A stretch of DNA of 64,000 nt from Candidatus Methylacidiphilum fumarolicum (GTDB taxonomy: Bacteria > Verrucomicrobiota > Verrucomicrobiia > Methylacidiphilales > Methylacidiphilaceae). The stretch covers positions 1 to 64,000 of the forward strand of contig NZ_OX458932.1 in NCBI RefSeq assembly GCF_949774925.1, given 5' to 3'. The position numbers and the translations under genes are program-made. A model generated the notes under the pieces. That model saw only the letters and a program-made list of their open reading frames with translations, was not told the DNA's origin and did no database searches. Below, in pieces: positions 31,521-39,110 of this stretch; positions within the stretch are counted from its first letter, which is position 1, and each line of letters starts with the position of its first letter.

Positions 31521-32114
31521 CTAGCTTTCATGGCTTGTTGCCTCCTCTTTCCGTTTAGGTACTAAAAAAGAATCGTCAAAAAAGGGAGTTGGAATTCCAT
31601 CAATACTTTTAGCGTTTTTTTCTTTCCAGTACGTACGGATTCCATTCTCTCCCTTTTTCCTTGTCCATTGGATGAGGTTATCCCTATTTCCTTTAAATTC
31701 AAAAAGAGGAACACCAAATCCACAGGAAGTGGTCACAAGATCAACATCGACTTGAATGATTTGTCTGGCGCCAGGAAAAGCGGGGAAAAGAATAATAAAT
31801 TCTCCCCATTGTTCTTCCCATGGATGAATCACTCTTCCTTTGCCGTAAAGCCTCAAAATGAGAGGCTTCCCTTCAAAAGAACAAAACATAAGGGTGATTC
31901 TTCCATCGGTGGTGAGATGAGCCGCGGTTTCGTTACCACTCCCAGTTAAGTTGAGCCAAAGAATCTTTTTAGGACTAATAATTCGAAGCGTATCTAATCC
32001 CTTGGGAGAAAGGTTAATTCGGCTGGTAGCGGTGGCGGTAGCTACAAAGAAAATCTTTTGGTTTACAATAAAATCTTGTAATTCGTTAGTGATTTCTTTG
32101 TAACTTTTACCCAT
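31521..32114 (-). CDS. Pyridoxamine 5'-phosphate oxidase-like FMN-binding protein
   Basis: The 197-residue protein has the split-barrel fold of the PNPOx-like family: LQDFIVNQKIFFVATATATSR, NLSPKGLDTLRI, LWLNLTGSGNETAAHL and RITLMFCSFEGKPLILRLYG. This subgroup (small flavin- or F420-type reductases) is mostly uncharacterised and lacks the extra C-terminal part of true PdxH, so vitamin B6 oxidation should not be assumed. It lies 12 bases downstream of kdpC on the same strand and may be read through from the kdp operon. Confidence 0.8.
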   Translation of the reverse strand: MGKSYKEITNELQDFIVNQKIFFVATATATSRINLSPKGLDTLRIISPKKILWLNLTGSGNETAAHLTTDGRITLMFCSFEGKPLILRLYGKGRVIHPWEEQWGEFIILFPAFPGARQIIQVDVDLVTTSCGFGVPLFEFKGNRDNLIQWTRKKGENGIRTYWKEKNAKSIDGIPTPFFDDSFLVPKRKEEATSHES

Positions 32115-32126
32115 TATCCCTATACA

Positions 32127-32750
32127 TTAGGGCAGTGGATACTCCTTGTCGAGCTCAAGGTTTAATTTTAGGACATTGACGCTTTCTTCCCCAAAAACAT
32201 TCGCAAGAGGATGTTGCGTGTTTTTCAAAATAAGATTCTCTATAGCTTTTAGATCCGCTTTCCTTGCTTTAGCTACTCTTGGAGCTTGCAGAAGAGCATT
32301 TTTGAGGCTGATGTGTGGATCAAGCCCACTGGCAGAGGCGCAGACGGCATCCGCAGGGATAAGGCTTGAAGGGGCTATCTCATTTTCCTTTCTATAGGAA
32401 ATGGCTCTTTTTTTTATCGTTTCAATGAAGTCTGAAGATGAAGGACCAAGGTTACTGCCTCCAGAGCTAAGGCCATCGTAGTTGGAAGCTGAAGGTCTCG
32501 GATGAAAATATGCTGGAGATTCAAAATTCTGTCCTATGAGTAAGGAGCCTCGGACATGGCCTTGCGAATCAATGATTAGGCTTCCTGCTGACTGATAAGG
32601 GAATAAGAGTTTTCCCAAAATATATACCGTAAATGGGTAGAGGCCTGAAAGAATCAGCAGCAACAGAAGTGTTAGTTTGACGGAAAGAACTAAGCTATGG
32701 AAGGGCTTCATAAGTATTATTAAGTATTCTTTTAAGTATTTTTTAGACAA
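32127..32750 (-). CDS. kdpC: K+-transporting ATPase subunit C
   Basis: KdpC is the single-span inner-membrane subunit that stabilises the KdpFABC potassium pump. The 207-residue product has one N-terminal membrane segment ([21 protein letters not shown]) and the family stretches [35 protein letters not shown] and [15 protein letters not shown]. Its start overlaps the end of kdpB by 8 bases. Confidence 0.96.
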
Positions 32751-34791
32751 GGTGTAAAAAATAGAGCAGTTGGTCTATAAGTTTAATGCCTACAAAAGGG
32801 GCTATGACTCCACCTAGGCCGTAAATTAAGATGTTTTTGATCAACAGATTCTCTGCAGAAACGGCCTTTAGCGTCACTCCTTTCAGAGCTATAGGGATTA
32901 AGAGAATAATGATGACCGCGTTGAATATGACAGCACTGAGGATAGCGCTTTCGGGAGTATGGAGTTGCATAATGTTCAGTGGGGATATTGCTGGAAAAGT
33001 GGACATGAGCATGGCAGGAATAATGGCAAAATATTTAGCCACATCATTGGCGATGCTAAAAGTGGTTAAGGCCCCACGCGTCACTAGCAGCTGTTTGCCA
33101 ATCTCGACGATCTCTATCAGTTTTGTAGGATTACTATCCAGATCAACCATATTGCCAGCTTCTCTAGCAGCTTGAGTCCCTGTGTTCATGGCCACGCCAA
33201 CATCTGCTTGTGCCAGTGCAGGAGCATCATTGGTGCCATCTCCGGCCATGGCGACAAGGTGACCAAGAACTTGTTCTTGGCGGATTCTTTTTAGCTTTTG
33301 TTCCGGGGTCACCTGAGCCATGAAATCATCGACACCTGCTTCGGCAGCGATAGCCGCGGCTGTCAGCGGATTATCTCCGGTGATCATTATGGTCCTTATG
33401 CCCATTTTTCTTAGCCTTGCAAAGCGCTCTCTAATCCCCCCTTTGATAATATCCTTTAGTTCAATCACCCCAAGGACATCTTTGCCTTCGACGACAACAA
33501 GAGGCGTGCCTCCATTTTTAGCGACATTTTCTACTATTTCTTTTACCGATTGGGATATGCTACCTCCCATTTCTTGCAAATATGCTTCGATTGCATCCAT
33601 GGACCCTTTTCGAATCTTTCTTTCGCAACAAGATCCATCAGCAGAAAAAAAATCAACTCCACTCATTCGTGTTTTGGCACTGAAAGGGATAAATTTTGCT
33701 CGAGTATCAAGTACTTCTCTACCTCTTAACCCATATTTTTCTTTGGCCAGAATGACAATCGATCTTCCTTCAGGAGTTTCATCGGCCAAGCTAGCAAGTT
33801 GAGCGGCATCAACCAGTCTATAGTGATCTATACCAGGGGCAGCTATAAATTCGGTGGCCATCCGATTTCCTAGAGTAATCGTCCCGGTTTTATCCAGCAG
33901 GAGCACATCGATATCCCCAGCTGCTTCGACAGCTCTACCACTTGTGGCTATCACATTGTGTTGCACTAACCTGTCAATGCCGGCAATCCCGATGGCATTT
34001 AATAAGCCGCCTATTGTGGTTGGAATCAGACAGACAAATAAGCTCGTCAAAATAGGAATCGAAATAGGAGCCTGAGAGTACTTTAAAAAGGGAACGAGAG
34101 TCACCACCACTAATAGAAAAATGAAGGTTAAAGAGGCTAATAAGATGGTTAAGGCAATCTCATTAGGCGTTTTTTGCCTTTTGGCTCCTTCCACCATTTC
34201 AATCATCCTGTCAAGAAAGGTATTCCCAGGCTCAGCAGTGATTTTTATGACAATACGATCACTAATGACTCGAGTCCCACCCGTAACTGCACTTCTATCC
34301 CCACCACTTTCCCGTATGACTGGAGCAGATTCACCAGTAATCGCTGATTCATCCACTGTTGCGGCTCCTTCTACCACTTCTCCATCAGAAGGGATGATAT
34401 CCCCCGCAATGCATACTACTAGATCTCCTTTTTTTAACTCACTGGCATTGACAAGGACTTCTTTCCCTTGGACAAGTTTCTTTGCCATGGTCACCGTCCG
34501 GGTCTGCTTTAAACTTTCGGCTTGAGCCTTTCCCCTACTTTCGGCAATAGCTTCTGCAAAATTCGCAAAAAGAACAGTAAACCAAAGCCAGAGACTAATC
34601 TGAAGAGTGAAGGAAAAAGATTCCGAAGAACGAAACATTTCAATGGTAGTAATAAAGGCACCAATTTCGGTGACAAAAATCACAGGGTTTTTCCAAAGAC
34701 TGAAAGGATTGAGTTTTATAAAAGCTTCTTTTATTGCGGTTGCAATAAGAAATAAGCTCCAAAAAGAAACAACATTCTTTGAGGTTTTCAT
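32743..34791 (-). CDS. kdpB: K+-transporting P-type ATPase subunit B
   Basis: KdpB hydrolyses ATP to drive K+ uptake by the Kdp complex. The 682-residue product has the P-type hallmarks: TGES at 152-155, the phosphorylated D300 in [10 protein letters not shown], the nucleotide-binding domain, and the hinge motif [22 protein letters not shown] followed by [23 protein letters not shown]. Membrane segments flank these. It lies between kdpA (28-base gap) and kdpC (overlap). The kdpDE sensor-regulator pair is not in the window. Confidence 0.98.
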
Positions 34792-34819: not shown

Positions 34820-36538
34820 TTAAAACATTTTGCCTGTACCTATCAGTAGATGCTCCAGGACAGGTCCTAAGGTAAAAACTGGGAAAAAGTTAAGAGCTGC
34901 AACCAGGAATATGGCTGCCCCAAGGATAAAAACAAAAAGGGCACCACTGGTCGGGAAAACCGTTTGGCTAATGTAGCGTTTCTGACACACAAGCGAGCCA
35001 GCAACGGCAAGCACAGGGATAATAATAAAATAGCGACCAAAAAACATAGCCAAGCCAAGGAAAATAGCATAGGGAACGGAAGTAGCGGACAACCCTCCAA
35101 AAGCGCTTCCATTGTTTTCAGTGGTCGAGACAAAAGCATAAAGAGTTTCGGTCAATCCATGTGGCCCTTTGTTTCCTAGAGCTGTTAATCCCCATGAAGA
35201 ATGTATGGCCAGTGCCGACAGGCCTAAGATTGAAATATACTGAATCATGAGCGCTAGCACCGCCATTTTGATCTCGTAAGCACCAATTCTCTTTCCCAAA
35301 TAGCCCGGAGTTCGGCCTGTCATCAGACCGAATAAAAATACTGAAAGAATGACGAAAAGCAGCATGCCATATAATCCAGAGCCCACTCCCCCAAAGATGA
35401 TTTCTCCTAAGCTCATATTGAACAGAGGAATCATTCCGGAAAGAGGCAAAAAAGAGTCATGCATGGAGTTAACCGCTCCACAGGAAGCAGAGGTCGTGAC
35501 AGCAGCAAAAAGGGTCGTTTCAAATATTCCAAATCTCGTTTCTTTGCCCTCCATATTGGCTTGTTGTTCAATGCCAAAAGGTTTAAAAAACGGATTGCCT
35601 GCATGCTCTAACCAATAACAGCTAAGGCTAAGCACAAGAAAAAGAAGCACCATGGTGATCCAAATAGACCAACCATGAGATAGCTTCTTACAACTTAATC
35701 CAAAGTAATAGGTTAAGGCACTAGGGATGAGAAAAATAAGGAGCATCTCCATAAAATTGGAAAGGGGAGTAGGATTTTCATAGGGATGAGCAGAGTTGGC
35801 GTTAAAGAATCCCCCTCCATTAGTTCCAAGAAGTTTTATCACTTCTTGAGAGGCGATAGGACCCTGAGGTAGTATGCAAGCTTCTTCATGAGCTTTGCTA
35901 TCTAATGGAAGATAGCGGAGGTAGGGATGGAAATTTTGAGGGACTCCTTGTGAAATCAGTAGTAAGGCACCAACAAGAGATAGAGGTAATAGAACATAAT
36001 AATTGATTCTTACCAGGTCTACCCAGCAATTGCCAACAGTTTTAGCCTCTGTTCGAACAATCCCTCGAACGAATGCGGCGGCGACGGCAATACCCGTAGC
36101 TGCCGAAGTAAAATTTTGGAAAGCAAGCCCAACCATCTGAGAAAAGTAGGACACTTCTTTTTCTGGTACATAGGATTGCCAGTTGGTGTTTGTTCCAAAA
36201 CTAATGGCCGTATTGAACGCTATATGAGGGGCCATAGGTCCTATATGTTCAGGGTTAAGGGGAAGAAAATGCTGCATTCTTGGCACAAAATAAGTCATCA
36301 ACATGCCTGCAAAATTAAAGAGTAAAATGCCAACCGCGTATTCTATCCAATTGTGCTCTTTGGACTTATCAATCGAGCAAATTTTGTATGTTAAATTTTC
36401 CAGTGGTTTTAAGAAGGCATCGAAAATAGTTTTCCCTTCTCTATCCAGGACTCTATAAATATGTATTCCCAAAGGTTTGTTTAGGACCGCAAGGATAGAT
36501 ATAAAAAGACCAAGTTCTATCCAATTTGAAGTTTTCAT
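34820..36538 (-). CDS. kdpA: K+-transporting ATPase subunit A
   Basis: KdpA is the K+-binding, channel-like subunit of the Kdp pump. The 572-residue product is polytopic and has family motifs such as [58 protein letters not shown] (a selectivity-filter region) and [21 protein letters not shown]. Its length is normal. It follows kdpF by 14 bases; the order on the minus strand is small ORF, kdpF, kdpA, kdpB, kdpC. Confidence 0.98.
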
Positions 36539-36552
36539 TGTTTTTGTAACAT

Positions 36553-36633
36553 TTAAAATTTTTCAGGCCAGAGGATGACGATCAGCAAATAAACCAGCAG
36601 TAGAAGTGAGACTAAAAATAGAATAAAAAGCAT
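36553..36633 (-). CDS. kdpF: KdpF, 26-residue Kdp subunit
   Basis: Reading ATG at 36633 gives a 26-residue, almost wholly hydrophobic peptide, MLFILFLVSLLLLVYLLIVI followed by LWPEKF and TAA. This matches the single-helix KdpF with its typical WPEKF end, which stabilises the KdpFABC complex. AAGGAG lies 8 bases before the start codon, an excellent ribosome-binding site. It is too short for most gene finders and stands exactly where kdpF is expected, before kdpA. Confidence 0.9.
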   Translation of the reverse strand: MLFILFLVSLLLLVYLLIVILWPEKF

Positions 36634-36645
36634 AGGCTAGCTCCT

Positions 36646-36729
36646 TCACACTTTATCGCATAGCTGGCAGTAGAGTAGGCAGCAAACTATCAAACCAACA
36701 AAGAACAAAACATACAAAACATCGATCAT
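36646..36729 (-). CDS. Tiny membrane peptide at head of kdp operon
   Basis: A 27-residue frame begins with ATG at 36729 and ends with TGA at 36646, 12 bases before kdpF. It starts MIDVLYVLFFVGLIV and ends in a Cys-rich stretch with charged residues (YCQLCDKV). It looks like one short transmembrane helix with a cytosolic polar end. I recall similar short ORFs, ending in a Cys-Asp-Arg-Leu-like tail, just ahead of kdpF in other bacteria. Its role is unknown. The gene call rests on position, hydrophobicity and compact spacing. Confidence 0.6.
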   Translation of the reverse strand: MIDVLYVLFFVGLIVCCLLYCQLCDKV

Positions 36730-36815
36730 CGTCTATAGGTATAGTTCCTCTTTCTGGTCTTTTATAGTTAAATATAGTGGAAAGAAGATCAAAATTTTAT
36801 TAATCCCGACACTAT

Positions 36816-39110
36816 TTATTTTAAAAGATCTTGAGGATCGACATCTATTCTAATGTTGATACCCATTTCAGACTCTTTGCCAAAAATTAGCTTCTTTAGC
36901 TTTTGACTGATCTCCATGACTTTTTGACAGCGTATGAATAACTGATAATGATATTTGCCTTTGATTTTGGCAATTGGGGCCTGTGTCGGTTCGCCAATAA
37001 TAGCATTAGAATCTTTCAATGCTTCTTTAATTTCTTTGGTGAATGCTTCTGTCATAAACTTCACTTTTTCTTCTGGACTCCCTATGAAGCGAATCAATAT
37101 GGCTCTGCAGAAGGGGGGATAAAAAAGAGTTTTTCTAAATTCTAGTTCCTGATCAACAAAACCAAGATAATCGTGATGCCTTGCAAATTGGATGGCTGGA
37201 TGGTAAGGGGTTCGTGTCTGTACAAAGACTTCTCCTTCCACAGATCCCCTGCCTGAACGGCCTGAAACCTGTAAAAGTTGTTGGAAACTTTTTTCTGATG
37301 CTCGAAAATCAGGGAGATGGAGAAGACCATCTATGGAAACAATTCCCACAAGACTTACATGAGGAAAGTCCAGGCCTTTGGAAACCATCTGAGTACCAAC
37401 AAGAATATCAAATTGCCGTTCTCCAAAGGCCCTTAATGCTCTTTCCACTGCCCCCTTTTTTTTCATTGTATCTGAATCCATTCTTAAAACTCGAGCAGAG
37501 CAAAACAATTGTTGAATTGCTTCTTCTACTTTTTCTGTGCCGCTTCCCAAAAATTTAAAAGCTCCTACTGCGCGACACATAGGACAGAAAGAAGGAACAG
37601 AAGCAGAATAATTGCATAGATGACAATTCAAAATCCCAAGGTTTTTATGAAAACTAAGGGAAATCGAACAATTTGGACATGGAAGGACATAGCCGCAGTC
37701 TGAGCATTGCAGTGAAGAGGAATAGCCCCTATGATTTATATAAAGGATAATTTGCTCTTTTCTTTCCAGTCTTTTTTCTATGGCCTCTTTTAGTTCATCT
37801 GAGATCAATTCTTCAGGCTTTAGATAAAAATCGGTTCCTTTCTTTTCTTGTTGTGAAAGGTTCCTTTTGCGTTTTCTTAGATCAACAATGCTGACAGAAG
37901 GGAGTTTTCTTTCTTCGACCCTTCTTTTAAGTTCTATCAGTTTATATTTACCACTCATCGCATTATAGTACGATTCTAAGGAGGGAGTGGCCGAACCCAA
38001 AATAATAAGGGCTCCTTCAAGTCTAGCACGCATTACGGCAACGTCTCTGCCGTGGTAGCGTGGGCTTTCCTCTTGTTTGAATGAGCTTTCATGTTCTTCA
38101 TCCACAATGATTAACCCTAGGGAGGGGAAGGGAGCGAAAAGAGCCGATCTGGTGCCAACAAGGATATTAATCTTGCCACGGAGTATATCGTACCAAAGAG
38201 TTGCTTTTTCACTACGGGAAATGCGGCTATGCCAGCAACCAATAGAGGCTCCTTGTGCTGTAAATCTGGCTTTAATTCTCTCCAGGAGTTGGGGTGTTAA
38301 AGAAATTTCAGGGACTAAAAGAAGAACCTGTTTTTTTTGGGTTAAGCATTTTTCAATTGTCCGCATATAGACTTCTGTCTTCCCGCTACCAGTGACTCCA
38401 AAGAGAAGAATCGGTTGAGGTAGGCCTTTATGCATTTCCTCTTCGATCAAGCGGACTGCGTGGCTTTGTTCTTTTGTCAAGCATTTTGGGAAAGAAAGAT
38501 CCGGAACAATAGGGAAATAGTTTCCGTCTTTTTTTTGGGAAAGTCCAACTATTAACCCTTTGCGCAAAAGATTCTTCCAGATGTTTCGAGAAATCCCAGT
38601 CTTTTTAGGAAGCTCAGAAAGCCAAGCGGGTTGCCATTTTTGGAGGAAATCCAAAGCCTCTTTTTCTTTTTTGGCTCTTTTTATTTTGCTTTGAATAGAA
38701 AGAGGATCCAAATGCGCTGGCAGGGATAATAGAAGGTCTTCTTTTGGTTTAATGGTCGCTCTAATGGAATCAGGCAAGGCGGCTTGTAACGCTGAAATCA
38801 ACGGGCTACAGTAGTAGTCTGCAATCCACTTGCATAATTTGAGGATGTTTTGAGGAACTAATAATTCTTTATTTTCCCTGCAGAGAAGGGGCTTGAGCGC
38901 AGAGTTTTGTTTTTCAAGAATATCCACCACGATTCCCTTGCCAAATCCGTTCTTAAACGGAACGCGAACATGAGTGCCTAAAACAATTTCTTTCTCCAGG
39001 GCTTCGGGAATAGCATAGTCTAGGAGAAAGTCTCTTTTGTTATCAAGAAGCACTCGAGCGATATGGAGACTGGGAAGAGAAGGGGGTGGGAAAAAAAATT
39101 CCTGTTCCAT
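36816..39110 (-). CDS. priA: Primosomal protein N' (replication restart helicase PriA)
   Basis: PriA recognises abandoned replication forks and reloads the replicative helicase. The 764-residue product has an N-terminal DNA-binding domain (ARVLLDNKRDFLLDYAIPEAL), the helicase Walker A GVTGSGKTEVYMR, the DEEH box IIVDEEHESSFKQEE, and a zinc region with eight Cys (CSDCGYVLPCPNC and CHLCNY ... CPMC), then VGTQMVSKGLDFPHVSLVGI and the QVSGRSGRG motif. The length is normal. Confidence 0.96.
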   Translation of the reverse strand: MEQEFFFPPPSLPSLHIARVLLDNKRDFLLDYAIPEALEKEIVLGTHVRVPFKNGFGKGIVVDILEKQNSALKPLLCRENKELLVPQNILKLCKWIADYYCSPLISALQAALPDSIRATIKPKEDLLLSLPAHLDPLSIQSKIKRAKKEKEALDFLQKWQPAWLSELPKKTGISRNIWKNLLRKGLIVGLSQKKDGNYFPIVPDLSFPKCLTKEQSHAVRLIEEEMHKGLPQPILLFGVTGSGKTEVYMRTIEKCLTQKKQVLLLVPEISLTPQLLERIKARFTAQGASIGCWHSRISRSEKATLWYDILRGKINILVGTRSALFAPFPSLGLIIVDEEHESSFKQEESPRYHGRDVAVMRARLEGALIILGSATPSLESYYNAMSGKYKLIELKRRVEERKLPSVSIVDLRKRKRNLSQQEKKGTDFYLKPEELISDELKEAIEKRLERKEQIILYINHRGYSSSLQCSDCGYVLPCPNCSISLSFHKNLGILNCHLCNYSASVPSFCPMCRAVGAFKFLGSGTEKVEEAIQQLFCSARVLRMDSDTMKKKGAVERALRAFGERQFDILVGTQMVSKGLDFPHVSLVGIVSIDGLLHLPDFRASEKSFQQLLQVSGRSGRGSVEGEVFVQTRTPYHPAIQFARHHDYLGFVDQELEFRKTLFYPPFCRAILIRFIGSPEEKVKFMTEAFTKEIKEALKDSNAIIGEPTQAPIAKIKGKYHYQLFIRCQKVMEISQKLKKLIFGKESEMGINIRIDVDPQDLLK

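Follow-up and report, generated by a model that had tools for sequence, protein, structure and literature searches.

The mechanism of KdpFABC, a textbook P-type ATPase, is known mostly from work on Escherichia coli, and the kdp operon of the window (the whole stretch of 64,000 nucleotides analyzed here) raises the question of whether this pump is encoded together with an additional small membrane protein. The preliminary description of this DNA reported a tiny kdpF gene of 26 residues with an AAGGAG site and, 12 bases ahead of it, a second hydrophobic frame of 27 residues, which was described as probably a missed small gene with a link to potassium uptake. The sequence contains the two frames as reported, and for the upstream small gene we use the working label U. 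The locus comprises the following features, in the direction of transcription:

36816-39110: preceding gene, PriA-like helicase by eye
36730-36815, minus strand: AT-rich gap of 86 bases from the end of the preceding gene to U
36646-36729, minus strand: U, ATG start, hydrophobic frame of 27 codons, predicted single-pass membrane protein of 27 aa, MIDVLYVLFFVGLIVCCLLYCQLCDKV
36634-36648, minus strand: stop codon of U and 12-base spacer with the kdpF ribosome-binding site (TGA-AGGAG-CTAGCCT)
36553-36633, minus strand: kdpF, small subunit of the Kdp K+ pump, 26 aa, MLFILFLVSLLLLVYLLIVILWPEKF (Pfam PF09604, above cut-off)
34820-36538, minus strand: kdpA, K+-translocating subunit (PF03814, 712 bits; TIGR00680, 648 bits)
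32743-34791, minus strand: kdpB, P-type ATPase subunit (TIGR01497, 1027 bits)
32127-32750, minus strand: kdpC, TTG start as listed, overlapping the end of kdpB (by eye and position)

The window kdpF passes the cut-off of PF09604 (29.3 bits against 21.2) and falls slightly under that of NCBIfam TIGR02115 (25.7 against 26.85). Twelve bases separate the stop of U from the kdpF ATG, and the kdpF Shine-Dalgarno sequence, GAAGGAG, merges with the TGA stop of U, an arrangement that would fit translational coupling of the two genes. The Shine-Dalgarno sequence of U itself is poor in the window species (AGAGGA, 16 bases before the ATG). The kdp promoter may be located within the 86-base gap; a promoter scan of this gap found no site on the operon strand. 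A riboswitch and a structured leader were both considered for the window and rejected on the basis of two negative results, namely no Rfam match at E<=1 for the gap and no inverted repeat of at least 10 in the leader. At the other end of the locus, 12 bases after the kdpC stop, there is a pyridoxamine 5'-phosphate oxidase-like gene (by eye; 31521-32114, minus strand) that may be part of the kdp operon. The KdpD match of this genome is found at about 1.79 Mb of the 2.48 Mb contig of which the window represents positions 1-64000.

Occurrence of U and its linkage to kdp genes

Among 60 relatives (the window's genome counted), KdpA is encoded in 27. All 12 kdp loci from the family, five from the window's genus (window included) and seven from a sister genus, have U directly upstream of kdpF and intact, with exactly 27 codons and with neither of the defects, stops or frameshifts, that would have spoken against a gene. 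In the other kdpA-bearing genomes of the order, U was recognized, by pattern and by eye, in 10 of 15, and five of these 10 encode a version of 50-51 residues with an extra N-terminal hydrophobic segment. This longer version occurs in one genus of the order (loci L021, L023-L026 and L071, of which L071 and L021 probably represent one contig), where the additional segment is basic and hydrophobic, and is apparently a two-helix form. The remaining five of the 27 kdpA-bearing relatives (L015-L019) lack U; at four of these loci (L016-L019) kdpF was not recognized either, as if the two genes had been lost jointly.

When the 288 genomes of the phylum were searched with a profile of 17 members from the window's order, 16 matches were obtained at E<1e-5, all of them just upstream of kdpA, six of the 16 being in genomes that had fed the profile. 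Five weaker matches were inspected, bringing the linkage check to 21 of the 30 matched loci: two (E 0.0011 and 0.015) are also just upstream of kdpA, and three (L048, L049 and L050; E 0.0015-0.014) have no kdpA alongside.

To assess the spread of U beyond the phylum, we used the best 80 of 584 candidate loci from a KdpA search of named genomes, a sample that leans towards pumps similar to that of the window. Their titles include Verrucomicrobia, Acidobacteria, Aminicenantes, several classes of Proteobacteria, Myxococcus, Chloroflexi, Thermomicrobiales, Gemmatimonadetes, Melainabacteria, a planctomycete, Desulfosporosinus and a Prolixibacteraceae bacterium; two of the 80 came without upstream sequence, leaving 78 to be scored. 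The order-only profile, derived from the window's order alone and hence an independent test, reached at least 10 bits on the sense strand within 400 bases before kdpA in 64 of these 78 loci and at least 20 bits in 56. The controls were virtually empty, with 0 of 78 on the antisense strand, 0 of 78 inside kdpA, 0 of 73 at 1.4-1.8 kb upstream and 1 of 780 dinucleotide shuffles. A broader profile, whose seed includes some of the scanned loci so that the counts are partly circular, detected U in 72 of the best 80 and, over an extended set of 112 loci, in 96. At 20 bits or more, the broader profile covers nine phyla (Verrucomicrobiota, Acidobacteriota, Aminicenantes, Pseudomonadota, Myxococcota, Chloroflexota, Thermomicrobiota, Gemmatimonadota and Melainabacteria), with lower scores in a planctomycete and Deinococcus; examples from Bacillota, Actinomycetota and Bacteroidota were read by eye. 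The carriers include Rhizobium, Sinorhizobium and Myxococcus, with more divergent versions in Deinococcus and Pseudomonas, and a U-like frame precedes kdpF, by eye, in plasmid copies from Streptomyces and Sinorhizobium meliloti. No U-like frame was seen in the E. coli K-12 and Halobacterium records examined. U thus represents a broadly conserved family and not a local oddity, which goes beyond what could be seen from the window.

The association with kdp holds on the scale of whole genomes. In 20 whole named genomes, the wider profile (A3) produced 19 matches at E<=2e-7, distributed over 18 genomes; judged by their coordinates, 18 of the 19 are inside the known kdp locus, whereas the remaining one is beside a second kdp operon, as is a weaker match with E 0.003. 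Strong matches are missing from two genomes, namely those with a U-less kdp locus (L123 and L130). Because A3 includes several of the scanned sequences, the informative part of this result is that nothing else in the 20 genomes scores well: of 13 weaker matches, the one with E 0.003 was located and the other 12 are at chance level (E 0.035-0.96). Among 142 alphaproteobacterial genomes, 20 matches were found at E<=0.001 and all 20 are beside kdpA, one being a locus already known. Altogether, every strong genome-wide match that was examined adjoins kdpA, and U accordingly shows the linkage to transporter genes expected of a transporter component. With the frame intact in all 12 loci of the family as well, sequence comparison supports the earlier suggestion of a missed gene with a link to potassium uptake.

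Present beside kdp in many very different bacteria, the family consists of proteins so short and unremarkable that they could escape annotation. Of 11 plasmid records with both a U-like frame and an annotated kdpA, U falls inside an annotated CDS, by a gene table that is incomplete, in only one, from Phyllobacterium, where the CDS is an overlong 'hypothetical protein'. Two further small frames were encountered in these surveys. In Phyllobacterium, a 55-aa hypothetical protein is annotated between kdpA and kdpB (L152:3215-3382), and all seven Bradyrhizobium loci (L098, L100, L107, L113, L118, L121 and L127) contain a third small hydrophobic frame of 33-34 aa with a basic tail in the kdpF-kdpA interval, at -109 to -4 relative to kdpA.

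Sequence features and signs of translation

The members of the U family share a simple pattern that consists of M-x-D, about 20 uncharged residues and Y-x3-C-[DE]-[RK]-[LIV]. M1, D3, Y20 and C24 are found in every row of the 17-member alignment of the window's order. Among the best 85 members, chosen by profile score, D3 is conserved in 83, F14 in 76, Y20 in 74 and C24 in 84, with D or E after the Cys in 71 and R or K at position 26 in 69. In the core before the Cys of these 85 sequences, only one residue of 1361 is charged, and K or R follows the Cys in 72; by the positive-inside rule, such a distribution suggests a topology with the N-terminus outside and the C-terminus inside. The length is 26-31 aa in 92 of 96 members, with start codons picked to favor about 27 aa, so that U, with its one predicted hydrophobic helix, is of the size of a small accessory subunit (less than about 50 aa). 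The 'Cys-rich tail' of the preliminary description is real in the window, where U contains C16, C17, C21 and C24, but is mostly a local trait, since only C24 is kept in the wider family and even this residue has exceptions. In the members from Deinococcus, Streptomyces, Shinella and Sinorhizobium the conserved Cys is replaced, and a functional Cys motif was rejected on this ground.

Several signals characteristic of translated genes were detected. In all six groups of relatives that were compared (hand-picked, with pairs within a group that are not independent), codon position 3 is the most common site of substitution, and dN/dS(JC) ranges from 0.12 to 0.49. Constraint is weakest in the window's genus (dN/dS(JC) 0.49, pN/pS 0.61), and in five of the six groups it is stronger on kdpF than on U. 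A piece of AGGAGG at least four bases long precedes 60 of 96 U starts (mean of 19.3 and maximum of 27 in 500 shuffles), compared to 45 of 446 other upstream ATGs and 70 of 104 kdpF starts in the same test. At 95 loci with both genes, the median distance from U to kdpF is 11 bases; 91 of the distances fall within -10 to 40, and in 13 of the 95, U overlaps kdpF. With this combination of signals, U is very probably a genuine protein-coding gene.

Evolutionary history and possible role of U

The position of U in the operon is not fixed. Two Deinococcus species, D. psychrotolerans and D. radiodurans, have kdpB at the head of the operon and a U-like frame located between kdpB and kdpF. The spacing from the kdpB stop to U is 8 bases in D. 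psychrotolerans, where the end of U also overlaps with the beginning of kdpF. The corresponding spacing in D. radiodurans is 446 bases, so that U could possibly be on a separate transcript there, although one study (PMC5716572) treats the kdp genes of this species as a single operon with a regulator-binding site before kdpB.

The history of U was traced on a KdpA phylogeny built with FastTree from 132 proteins, of which 105 are accompanied by U, 25 are not and 2 could not be scored (15 of the labels were assigned by eye). The distribution of U on this tree requires 9 changes, compared to a mean of 23.2 for shuffled labels (none of 500 as low). U is present on both sides of the midpoint root and is absent from 16 of the 17 rows of a clade that combines Clostridia-type, Bacteroidota and some verrucomicrobial pumps. 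The plain reading of this pattern is that U is ancestral and was lost several times, including in E. coli; because the tree is rooted at the midpoint and contains long branches, this reading is tentative.

U is a conserved and constrained family with predicted membrane character and with linkage to kdp, and from these features we infer its translation, topology and function. Our preferred reading, to which we assign a probability of roughly 0.6, is that U is an additional small accessory subunit, or an assembly or stability factor, of the KdpFABC pump, encoded by a kdpF-adjacent gene. In this scenario, U would be translated in the kdp operon immediately upstream of kdpF, probably with translational coupling to kdpF; the peptide would insert into the inner membrane with the acidic N-terminus outside and the C-[DE]-[RK]-[LIV] tail inside; and the inserted peptide would join KdpFABC in a capacity similar to that of KdpF. 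We favor this reading because U is single-pass, adjacent to kdpF and probably made together with it, stays with the pump genes across changes of gene order and is not tied to sensor genes. Given the absence of U in E. coli K-12, which encodes the model pump, U must be dispensable for transport as such, and this absence fits a stabilizing or tuning role better than a role in transport. Counting against a subunit are the weakest constraint and the poor Shine-Dalgarno sequence in the window's own genus, the existence of the U-less clade and of U-less relatives (16 of 17 rows and 5 of 27, respectively) and the losses of the Cys.

The main rival explanation, unlikely in our assessment, holds that U acts outside the pump as a small membrane regulator of K+ sensing that binds KdpD in the way MgrB binds PhoQ. 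Small single-pass membrane peptides encoded in operons are frequently sensor regulators, and KdpD is present in 11 of the 12 kdp-bearing genomes of the family, the twelfth genome being only 83% complete. However, U stays with kdpF and kdpA both when kdpD is elsewhere in the genome and when the order of the operon changes. Furthermore, overexpression of KdpF in BCG left kdp expression unaltered (PMC5382158), although this observation concerns KdpF and not U.

We regard as improbable the alternative that U is a leader peptide, itself inert, the translation of which matters only for coupling or attenuation of kdpF and kdpA. The location of U just ahead of kdpF, with the short median gap of 11 bases and the overlaps at 13 of 95 loci, is what such a peptide would display, and in the window U is the first pump-linked frame after the 86-base gap; the 446-base spacing in D. 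radiodurans, with a separate transcript being possible, is compatible with it as well. A leader peptide would be expected always to come first, before the structural genes, and the kdpB-U-kdpF-kdpA order in the two Deinococcus species, in particular the 8 bases from the kdpB stop to U in D. psychrotolerans, makes a pure 5' leader role unlikely. The residues D, Y, C and [RK], which are retained in different phyla, and the membrane composition also argue against an inert peptide, as does the lack of Rfam or inverted-repeat elements in the window leader.

That U is a duplicated and diverged KdpF appears highly improbable. The two proteins are adjacent, of equal length and similar in membrane pattern, and both often end with an acidic-basic-hydrophobic triplet. 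Nevertheless, profile-profile comparison of U with KdpF using hhalign gave a probability of 8.7%, with 2 of 100 column-shuffled controls as high, and neither PF09604 nor TIGR02115 matched any of the 59 U members scanned (17 at E<=1 and 42 at E<=0.1). A paralogy of U with KdpF was rejected on the hhalign result. Finally, short hydrophobic frames are common and the ribosome-binding site of U in the window is weak, as would be expected if U were open by chance. This explanation is refuted in practice by the conservation against controls (64 of 78 loci against no more than one match in any control), and the codon-position bias and the Shine-Dalgarno enrichment also speak against it.

Comparison with KdpF and other small membrane proteins

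The closest point of comparison for U is its neighbor KdpF, with which it shares a length of about 27 aa, a single predicted membrane helix and membership in the same operon. The two differ at the C-terminus, where KdpF has a tail of the PE[KR]F type and U has C-[DE]-[RK]-[LIV]; the more general [PA]-E-[KR]-F type of tail is lacking in U too. They also differ in distribution, as KdpF is retained in some lineages without U. The window U matches no family in Pfam and NCBIfam. For 59 members of the U family, a set of 17 and a set of 42 (library cut-offs being known for the first member of each set only), there was no convincing Pfam or NCBIfam family and none that recurred in more than three members. 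The best library match was PetM, with E 3.4e-4 for a single member. PF09604 and TIGR02115 were matched by none of the 17 at E<=1 and by none of the 42 at E<=0.1, and a third KdpF model, NF011326, matched one member with E 0.099. The comparison of U with solved structures yielded nothing better than E 0.49.

Raw counts suggest that U varies together with the type of the KdpF tail (PE/PT, that is, proline-type, vs AE/AD/TE): both U and the proline-type tail are present in 100 cases and neither in 14, with 6 and 4 mixed cases. Phylogenetically independent pairs do not support this co-variation (median p 1), which is only a lead. Among Bacillota (L178-L197 and others), U accompanies 8 of 9 proline-type KdpF tails and none of 10 AE/AD/TE tails, the eight positives having been labelled by eye.

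One study limits kdpF in Verrucomicrobia to acidophiles (PMC9543262). Contrary to that statement, kdpF-like frames occur in several Verrucomicrobiota outside the acidophilic methanotrophs (L064, L066, L068, L069, L073, L075 and L090), and kdp loci outside the acidophiles contain U as well as kdpF. These kdpF genes have probably been overlooked in annotation. A nonannotated kdpF is also mentioned for Caulobacter, with a leader of approximately 100 nt (PMC8552747), and a kdp leader of 120 nt is given for M. smegmatis (PMC5401905); leaders of such lengths would barely, or just, have room for U. The main text of a Ribo-seq paper on S. meliloti (PMC10117765), searched by term, mentions neither kdp nor potassium. 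A literature search limited to open-licence papers showed no description of a U gene.

A partial precedent may exist in one species, Clostridium acetobutylicum, where kdpZ and kdpY, reportedly small hydrophobic frames, precede kdpA. The position of these two genes follows from the operon name, kdpZYABCXDE (Treuner-Lange et al. 1997), which PMC5401905 gives for a transcript.

Tiny single-pass partners are known for other large membrane complexes, among them AcrZ, CydX and MgtR, as well as sarcolipin and phospholamban on P-type ATPases. Our searches gave no homology between these proteins and U, which is likened to them by kind only: all are tiny and single-pass, and they adjoin or act on a membrane complex. 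The model KdpFABC complex would be incomplete if a further small membrane partner of this kind were present in many bacteria, and we see an even chance that the Kdp pump of most bacteria would turn out to have, beside KdpF, a fifth subunit that is small and so far unrecognized. Such a subunit would be ancestral to the operon and would have been lost in the lineage leading to E. coli, with the textbook KdpFABC, worked out in that species, being a reduced form.
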